A stretch of 37,999 bases of DNA from Patescibacteria group bacterium. GTDB lineage: Bacteria > Patescibacteriota > Minisyncoccia > HO2-45-28. Position numbers and translations under genes: made by a program. Positions 21,771 to 23,317 of this stretch are shown piece by piece (within the stretch, counting starts at the first letter, position 1; each line of letters begins with the position of its first letter). The notes beneath the pieces were generated by a model that was given only the letters and a program-made list of their open reading frames with translations, was not told the origin of the DNA and made no database searches. The stretch is from assembly GCA_022563755.1 (NCBI GenBank), contig JADFMT010000004.1:1-37999 (forward strand), in the 5' to 3' direction.

Positions 21771-21842
21771 GCCAGTGTAGTTCAATGGTTAGAACGAGGG
21801 AATCATAACCCCTAGACAGAGGTTCAATTCCTCTCACTGGCA
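21771..21842 (+). tRNA. tRNA(CAU): elongator Met or Ile2
   Basis: GCCAGTG/CACTGGC acceptor, anticodon CAT, T-arm AGAGGTTCAATTCCTCT. Confidence 0.88.
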
Positions 21843-22044
21843 CAGGGAGAGGAATTGAACCTTCGAAAGGGGGTGCCAGACGCGAGGCTCTTTCGCAAAG
21901 CGAAAAGCCCCGTCTCCGGGGAAAACTGTAGTTTTCCCCGCGGCGGAAAACAGTGAGCGAAGCGAGCGCTAGAAACCGAGGGGTTTCTAGGGAGCGGTAG
22001 CGACAGGGTCTAGGAGCAAAGCGACGAATTCCTCTCACTGGCAC
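21826..22044 (+). mobile_element. 201-bp structured mini-element bounded by an 18-bp tRNA-tail duplication
   Basis: AATTCCTCTCACTGGCAC at 21826-21843 and 22027-22044; inverted T-arm copy at 21848-21862; hairpins GGGGAAAACT-gt-AGTTTTCCCC and CTAGAAACC-gag-GGGTTTCTAG. Confidence 0.65.
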
Positions 22045-22058
22045 TGAAAATTAAATAC

Positions 22059-22133
22059 GCGGGTGTAGTGTAGCCTGGTTAACATGCCTCCCTGTCACGG
22101 AGGAGATCGCCGGTTCAAATCCGGTCGCCCGCG
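22059..22133 (+). tRNA. tRNA-Asp(GUC)
   Basis: GCGGGTG/CGCCCGC acceptor, anticodon GTC, T-arm GCCGGTTCAAATCCGGT. Confidence 0.94.
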
Positions 22134-22151
22134 CTTTGTAAAATTCGGTAC
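22104..22151 (+). repeat. attL-like 48-bp direct repeat (tRNA-Asp 3' end plus 18 nt)
   Basis: AGATCGCCGGTTCAAATCCGGTCGCCCGCGCTTTGTAAAATTCGGTAC, identical to 23270-23317. Confidence 0.97.
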
Positions 22152-22595
22152 ATGAAAGAAACAAAACTTATAATCGAACCCACGTGCTCTTCTATTATAG
22201 ATAGTTTTGCCAGAGAAATTTCAGAGAACAGCGAAGTCCACACTATTATTGGAACAGAAGAAAATCTCAATAATATACTAGAACAAGACAAATTCTGCGA
22301 TTCCTATACCAATAATAGAACAATTGCATTAGGAGACAGTGAGAAATTTAATACTTCAGCATCAGGTATTACTGATATAAATCTTACAACAAGTGAAATT
22401 ATTTGTTTAAGAGAAAAAGCTGGAATTTACACATTCCAAGAAGCTTCAAAATTATTCTATGATAACGTAAGCCAAACTATAGACTACAAAAGCTTTAAAA
22501 ATAAAAAAACTCGAGATGCAGTAGAAAAAATTAAAAAAATAATTAAATTCTGTCCAGGAATTTTAAATGTTTTCCAATCTAAAAAACAAAATTAA
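22152..22595 (+). CDS. Unknown cassette protein
   Basis: ATG immediately abuts the 48-bp repeat; overlaps the downstream ORF by 29 nt; no recognised domain. Confidence 0.7.
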   Translation: MKETKLIIEPTCSSIIDSFAREISENSEVHTIIGTEENLNNILEQDKFCDSYTNNRTIALGDSEKFNTSASGITDINLTTSEIICLREKAGIYTFQEASKLFYDNVSQTIDYKSFKNKKTRDAVEKIKKIIKFCPGILNVFQSKKQN

Positions 22596-23259
22596 AAAAG
22601 TTAAGAAATCAATTATTGCAGTTGGTTTTCGTTCAAACCAAGATAAGGTAACAATTATTGGCAGTGGATTTGCTGTGGGTAATGACGGAAGAATTTTAAG
22701 CTCCGCACATTTATATAATCAACTCAAACCGGAACAGGCAGAAAATCTTATAGGTATGATTATGACTGAGGAAGGAACGGATAATTTGGAGCGCTATGTT
22801 TGGCTGCCTTTAAAACTAATAAAAAAAGAAGACAAAGATGATCTAGCGCTATTCCAAGTCGAAGATTATGAAAAAACATTTTTGAAGCCCTTAGATCTTG
22901 GTGACTCCGAAAATATTGAGATCGGCCAAGACACATATTTTATCGGTTTTCCTTACGCAGCACAGCTTATAAATGATGGTTTTGGCGTTACACTCATTGT
23001 CAATAAGGCAATCGTTAGTAATATAAAACGCGATGGAGTAGATCCCTCACACAAGCGGAATTGGATAATTTTAGATGCGGTAAGCAATCCGGGAAATAGC
23101 GGCTGTCCATTGATAGACATAGAGACAAATAAAGTAATTGGCGTGATGGCCATTTCTTTTCGCATGAAATCTAAGACTGTTGAAAATCTTGATATCAGGG
23201 AGCCGATGCACATTTGTGCCGCAAAACCAATTAACTTGGCTAAGGGTTTGTTAAGTTAA
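22567..23259 (+). CDS. Trypsin-like (S1/Trypsin_2 type) serine protease
   Basis: Catalytic His in LSSAHLY, Asp in KDDLALFQV, Ser in NPGNSGCPLID. Confidence 0.88.
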   Translation: MFSNLKNKIKKVKKSIIAVGFRSNQDKVTIIGSGFAVGNDGRILSSAHLYNQLKPEQAENLIGMIMTEEGTDNLERYVWLPLKLIKKEDKDDLALFQVEDYEKTFLKPLDLGDSENIEIGQDTYFIGFPYAAQLINDGFGVTLIVNKAIVSNIKRDGVDPSHKRNWIILDAVSNPGNSGCPLIDIETNKVIGVMAISFRMKSKTVENLDIREPMHICAAKPINLAKGLLS

Positions 23260-23269
23260 GATAATCTGA

Positions 23270-23317
23270 AGATCGCCGGTTCAAATCCGGTCGCCCGCGC
23301 TTTGTAAAATTCGGTAC
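23270..23317 (+). repeat. attR-like 48-bp direct repeat
   Basis: Identical to 22104-22151. Confidence 0.97.

Follow-up and report, generated by a model that had tools for sequence, protein, structure and literature searches.

The window, the whole 37,999-nucleotide stretch of DNA analyzed here, contains a complete tRNA(CAU) gene at positions 21771-21843, which is detected by both ARAGORN and the Rfam tRNA model and is read as a non-initiator tRNA. Behind this gene lies a compact element that spans 21826-22026. The genome to which the window belongs (781 kb in 47 contigs) is designated G000, and other G and L codes denote other genomes and loci. The parts of the locus are as follows.

21771-21825, plus strand: host part of tRNA(CAU), up to the GGTTC of the T-loop (ARAGORN, Rfam tRNA).
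Between 21825 and 21826: left junction, placed where the homology of the carried and displaced tails starts.
21826-21843, plus strand: carried tRNA tail, made up of the 3' strand of the T-arm and the acceptor strand; with it the functional tRNA is complete (18-bp direct repeat with 22027-22044).
21843-21862, plus strand: arm, the reverse complement of the target across the junction GGTTC/AATTCCTCTC (inverted repeat).
21863-21917, plus strand: junction strand GAAAGGGGGTG... and an extra hairpin at 21884-21911 (eight-copy alignment).
21918-21939, plus strand: P2 hairpin GGGGAAAACTGTAGTTTTCCCC (covariation in 113 sequences, 94% of cells paired).
21940-21953, plus strand: conserved strand like GTGnnGGAAAACAG, here GCGGCGGAAAACAG (column conservation).
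21952-21970, plus strand: P3 hairpin with a hypervariable tip (eight-copy and 113-sequence alignments).
21969-21990, plus strand: P4 hairpin CTAGAAACC..GGTTTCTAG (covariation, 96% of cells paired).
21991-22026, plus strand: P5 (GGAGC..GCGAC) with the right-end extension AGGGTCTAGGAGCAAAGCGACG (right end fixed across targets).
Between 22026 and 22027: right junction, placed by the ...GCGAC(G) end, which is constant whatever the target.
22027-22044, plus strand: displaced native tRNA tail (direct repeat).

A sequence-only reading had described this region as a hairpin-rich, non-coding mini-element on a tRNA gene with a duplicated tail. That description holds for a largely non-coding element, and its scope had been underestimated. 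The 18-bp tail AATTCCTCTCACTGGCAC occurs at 21826-21843 and again at 22027-22044, an offset of exactly 201 bp; the chance expectation for such a repeat in 275 bp is about 5e-7. The inverted copy of the T-arm is perfect over 16 nt (21847-21862), or 95% identical over 20 nt (21843-21862), and in tRNA(CAU) the target junction that it crosses is GGTTC/AATTCC. Three hairpins are borne out, GGCTCTTTCGC at 21884-21911, GGGGAAAAC at 21918-21939 and CTAGAAACC at 21969-21990; the first of these, the extra hairpin, is found only in some copies of G000. The repeated motifs are also present, as GGAGC..AGCGAC at 21991-22004 and 22013-22025. The folding z-score is -7.9 for 21771-22045 and -2.65 for the inside alone (21844-22027).

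The element had also been likened to an empty version of the adjacent tRNA-Asp cassette (22104-23317, within the neighborhood 22059-23317), and this likeness does not stand. A 48-bp direct repeat, identical in both copies (22104-22151 and 23270-23317), bounds the neighbor and begins upstream of GGTTC. Because both the arm and the core are missing there, the tRNA-Asp cassette is not a fuller version of the element; either it is an insertion of another kind or it has lost its core. It contains a 147-aa open reading frame without assignment and a trypsin-like protein (PF13365), the latter with a weak match to candidate defense proteins. Cargo-bearing relatives of the element were found at other loci.

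A covariance-model search, which had been proposed as a check, recovered many copies. A model built from eight copies finds 10 full copies in the 781-kb G000 genome and relatives in 11 of 27 related genomes, and a DNA search of G000 yields further copies, most of them directly behind tRNA genes (Val, Lys, Phe, Tyr). The structure is thus present well beyond the window, with relatives in many independent assemblies. A second model, built from 27 sequences, was used for two wider surveys. It detects the core in 116 of 384 genomes sampled from the class, the named ones being almost all Patescibacteria, and in 21 of 287 genomes from the phylum, 12 of these outside the class. An exact pattern recovers at least 119 stretches in a named genome collection, and their labels are mostly Patescibacteria groups or unnamed bacteria. 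One of these matches (L193) lies on a contig labeled as a Bacteriovorax sp. MAG, a label that is likely a binning error. Virus-borne spread was considered and rejected, as the single strict pattern used has 0 exact matches in 2.9 million viral contigs. When the window is searched against Rfam (4227 families, gathering score), the matches are tRNAs only, and a permissive Rfam search of seven loci places no plausible family over the cores. No earlier description of the cassette was found in the openly accessible journal literature. The cassette is apparently a mobile DNA family without earlier description.

The fold of the core is supported by covariation. Across 113 distinct sequences, in an alignment fitted to the covariance model, the model structure is paired in 91.7% of cells and 42 of 43 pairs show changes on both sides. 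None of 500 shuffles reaches any of these measures, and slid structures collapse. The eight-copy alignment, which was not fitted to the model, already contains 17 double-change pairs. Conserved strands in the 113 sequences are GGGGTC before P2, GTGnnGGAAA after P2, AAACCG in P4, GGAG after P4 and GCGAC at the right end. At the 3' end of rpsG (L020:2522-2705), the core reads as circularly permuted, with target arms that extend P2 and not P1. A copy resembling this permuted core (L035:2297-2442) seems to be nested inside another core.

The copies share one layout. On the 5' side, the unit begins with a carried copy of the target-gene end, followed by an optional spacer, terminator or cargo; terminator-like hairpins lie between the gene and the arm in many copies. 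On the 3' side are the arm, which is the reverse complement of the carried target, the core of covarying hairpins ending in ...GCGAC(G), and then the displaced native end. The attachment to tRNA genes that had been described is therefore correct, but the restriction to tRNAs is not, as the targets comprise tRNA T-loops, tmRNA and the ends of protein genes (fusA, rpmG, dnaX, hppA, trxB). From reading translated gene ends, the protein targets are recognized as putative 5' ends of fusA and dnaX and 3' ends of rpmG, trxB, hppA, rpsG and a pilC-like gene. Upstream sequence was sufficient for 107 elements. A tRNA or tmRNA on the same strand lies no more than 250 bp upstream in 46 of these, versus 3 of 262 random positions, and 70 are flanked by a direct repeat, versus 12 of the 262. 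One or the other feature is present in 74 of the 107; for the remaining 33 (about 31%), a target repeat or nearby tRNA was not detected. The carried and displaced tails become homologous directly after ...GCGAC(G) in most elements, independent of the target, and in tRNA targets their homology mostly starts after GGTTC.

Where the carried and displaced tails diverge within the arm, the arm mostly agrees with the carried one, which indicates that carried tail, arm and core are inherited together. The arm can also form a stem with the displaced tail. After a change in this stem, G-U and A-C appositions are nearly equal (14:12), and the stem is probably a secondary consequence of the match between the arm and the carried tail. 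Selection for RNA pairing between the arm and the displaced tail was rejected on the same count. At L046:1411-1560, the reading frame of a trxB-like carried tail stays open across the arm and into the core, where it ends at the conserved GTGTAG; the trxB-like protein thereby gains a C-terminal extension.

A key question is whether the carried tail is a duplicate of the native gene end or was imported. The hppA gene of G376 is the clearest case. Over 30 codons, comparison of its carried with its displaced tail gives 23 synonymous differences and no nonsynonymous ones. GC3 of the displaced tail (0.69) is close to that of the gene body (0.70), whereas the carried tail has a GC3 of 0.38. In two relatives from the same family, hppA is uninterrupted and without a core. 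The carried and displaced tails of rpmG differ by 9 synonymous and 1 nonsynonymous changes in G001 and by 8 and 3 in G003. When G001 and G003 are compared with each other, the carried rpmG tail shows 6 synonymous differences and 1 nonsynonymous difference, and the displaced tail 4 and 3. Because the carried tail appears to be constrained at least as much as the displaced one, it seems, over these few codons, to be the one that is used. In fusA of G001 the two tails are identical; a foreign origin is therefore not visible in every case. The hppA GC3 values and synonymous pattern, together with the rpmG differences, indicate that the unit brought its own version of the gene end and that the carried tail is foreign in several cases, from which it would follow that such units arrive horizontally. 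The GC3 and synonymous pattern of hppA and the position of the junction show an element-borne tail that completes the gene and a native tail displaced at a fixed junction. Simple target-site duplication is contradicted by the synonymous divergence in hppA and rpmG and by hppA GC3.

Within a genome, cores at unrelated targets are 93-100% identical. The values are 100% for tRNA-Arg and tRNA-Glu in G005, 98% for rpmG and tRNA-Trp in G003, 95% for rpmG and another gene in G001, 95% for tRNA-Val and tRNA-Tyr in G000, and 93% for tRNA-Met and a glycosyltransferase-like gene in G026. For the same target in sister genomes, core identity is 94% (dnaX) and 96% (tRNA-Arg). Near-identical cores at unrelated targets, with target-specific arms and tails, suggest that the core has been either retargeted to new sites or homogenized by gene conversion. 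Units also occur in tandem and with cargo. At tRNA-Arg of G005, two complete, identical units are followed by a third, truncated one. On contig C31 of G000, a 6.9-kb stretch between two cores that share a tRNA-Gln target encodes two TIR proteins resembling ThsB, together with a partner of a candidate defense system. In G054, a tRNA and its own core enclose 7.7 kb of cargo encoding a cytosine methylase, a restriction-enzyme-like protein, an AriA/Old-like ATPase and a large serine recombinase.

Candidate mobility enzymes were examined by family. Large serine recombinases (PF07508) are common in the class (384 genomes) and lie inside two units. However, they show no association with the core (69 of 116 core-positive versus 153 of 268 core-negative genomes, p = 0.74) and are absent from G000, and they were rejected as partners. 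At L139:9059-10768, the C-terminal codons of a large serine recombinase overlap tRNA T' sequence on the opposite strand, and a similar overlap with tRNA-Met is seen at L077:1624-3036. Reverse transcriptase (PF00078) and the Y1 transposase (PF01797) are absent from G000 and most core-rich genomes, and the IS110 transposase (PF01548) is absent from G000 and found in 1 of 18 core-rich genomes tested; all three were rejected as partners. The absence of these enzymes argues against membership in the IS110/IS1111, IS200/IS605 or REP/RAYT, and retroelement or group II intron families. Exactly one tyrosine recombinase (PF00589) is encoded in G000 and in most core-rich genomes, and core-free genomes are alike in this respect. 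The G000 protein reads, by its sequence, as an ordinary Xer, and neither G000 nor most core-rich genomes contain a dedicated tyrosine integrase beyond the chromosomal Xer. The enzyme may therefore be the host Xer, an unrecognized protein or a product of a helper element since lost.

Whether the core acts as DNA or RNA was addressed through its mismatches. An excess of G-U pairs like that of tRNA stems is the product of RNA selection. The P2 and P4 helices contain 16 G-U versus 8 A-C cells, a count of 24 non-Watson-Crick cells that omits the loop-closing pair of P4 and comes from an alignment fitted to the model. For comparison, 324 tRNAs taken from the same loci have 169 versus 6 in their acceptor and T stems, and the contrast is significant (Fisher p = 3e-5). 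Because the G-U excess is weak relative to the tRNA stems, this small count leans toward a core that functions as folded or double-stranded DNA rather than RNA.

Our analysis allows a mechanism to be proposed. Sequence comparison gives good support to the family, its layout, the junction and the import of tails, and we infer mobility from the comparison between loci and genomes. We judge it slightly more probable than the contrary that these are tail-replacing cassettes that integrate site-specifically through a folded attachment site, formed by arm and core, with the help of a putative recombinase acting in trans. The unit would probably be a DNA circle with the joint GCGAC(G)/tail, and it would integrate at a matching sequence. 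The carried tail would then complete the target gene, and the original tail would be pushed to the right of the core. The arm, paired to target sequence, and the hairpin core would together constitute the folded site used by the recombinase. Repeated integration at the restored target could generate tandem arrays able to hold cargo, including defense genes. A more far-reaching version, which we hold only tentatively, is a programmable system in which a constant folded core and an interchangeable arm insert cargo into almost any conserved gene end. As part of the same tentative version, the gene would be repaired in the same step, and the enzyme would be an unrecognized recombinase or the host's single Xer.

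Several other explanations were weighed. The arm might be a guide and the core the scaffold of a guide RNA that steers a recombinase to both the target and the carried copy, by analogy with the bridge or seek RNA of IS110. Arm and target are complementary across the junction, and the arm varies with the target while the core stays constant, a single guide would suffice because donor and target sequences are the same, and the permuted core at rpsG suggests that fold outweighs order. However, the IS110 transposase distribution and the little RNA-like G-U bias of the core helices make this reading rather unlikely. Strong covariation, a location behind genes and the terminator-like hairpins would also suit a resident structured RNA gene or a 3' regulatory element of tRNA and mRNA genes that is not itself mobile. 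Such a residence is improbable given displaced tails, foreign carried tails, tandem copies and cargo, the use of both 5' and 3' gene ends, and a patchy distribution. A further candidate, a self-splicing ribozyme of intron type with a 5' part that duplicates the 3' exon, is hardly credible: the core is only about 100 nt, Rfam searches yield no intron family, and the carried rpmG tail rather than the displaced one seems, over few codons, to be in use. Its appeal lies in an arm geometry like that of an internal guide sequence and a unit that ends in G, as judged from the anatomy.

Natural transformation followed by homologous recombination through the shared gene tail, with the core as a passenger or recombination hot spot, would account for a foreign tail set as a mosaic beside native gene sequence, and it fits with the lack of a recombinase among the families searched. 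The tails do supply homology to the host gene, but tRNA tails offer only about 17-18 bp, and the junction is base-exact beside the conserved core end; we regard this route as quite doubtful. Flanking direct repeats around arm and core, and tail pairs that are in some cases identical, recall a MITE-like transposon with a long target-site duplication and an inverted arm derived from hairpin copying. Tail divergence and GC3 exclude simple duplication for hppA and speak against it for rpmG, making this origin very improbable for the family, although duplication could still hold for copies with identical tails.

The tail-replacing cassettes share features with known systems. IS110/IS1111 bridge or seek RNA elements contain a short structured non-coding part with target complementarity. 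The present units are similar in this respect but differ in that G000 has no IS110 transposase and in that the carried tail repairs the target gene. Casposons can target the 3' ends of tRNA genes with a target repeat. This targeting is shared, whereas the cassettes read here contain no Cas1/PolB cargo and the tail, in clear cases, has been brought in and is not a duplicate. Integron gene cassettes with attC sites (e.g., PMC2727003, PMC3053210) resemble the units in having cargo cassettes, a folded hairpin site at the end, a fixed junction and arrays. In contrast to integrons, no integron integrase is seen here and there is no attI platform; many conserved genes serve as targets, a replacement gene end and a complementary arm are carried, and the core is a conserved multi-hairpin structure. 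tRNA-targeted tyrosine-recombinase elements, such as the tycheposons (a Methylophilaceae case is given in PMC10872708), share tRNA-gene insertion, tail repeats and cargo. Those elements contain, or rely on, a tyrosine recombinase that has been identified, and a target-matching arm with a core is not known to be common to them; here, the same core is used at tRNAs and at unrelated protein genes alike.

A cassette system present in a large fraction of these tiny genomes is described by no family library searched. Patescibacteria have reduced genomes and few transposases, and the system could explain how they take up defense genes without harm to essential genes. If the arm sets the target, target choice by base pairing would occur here naturally. 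Foreign carried tails are, in addition, a direct marker of gene transfer between lineages.

Parts of the core also vary or occur alone. Solitary hairpins of the 21884-21911 type, without the rest of the core, are found at G000:C24:26138-26179 and G011:C14:109-150 (L019, L045). The tips of P3 and P5 (e.g., L004, L005, L002) hold differing palindromes, GTCCGCCAGCTGGCGGAC, CTGAGCTTGTCGAAG and CCTGCCGGCAGG, which look like swapped-in repeats.
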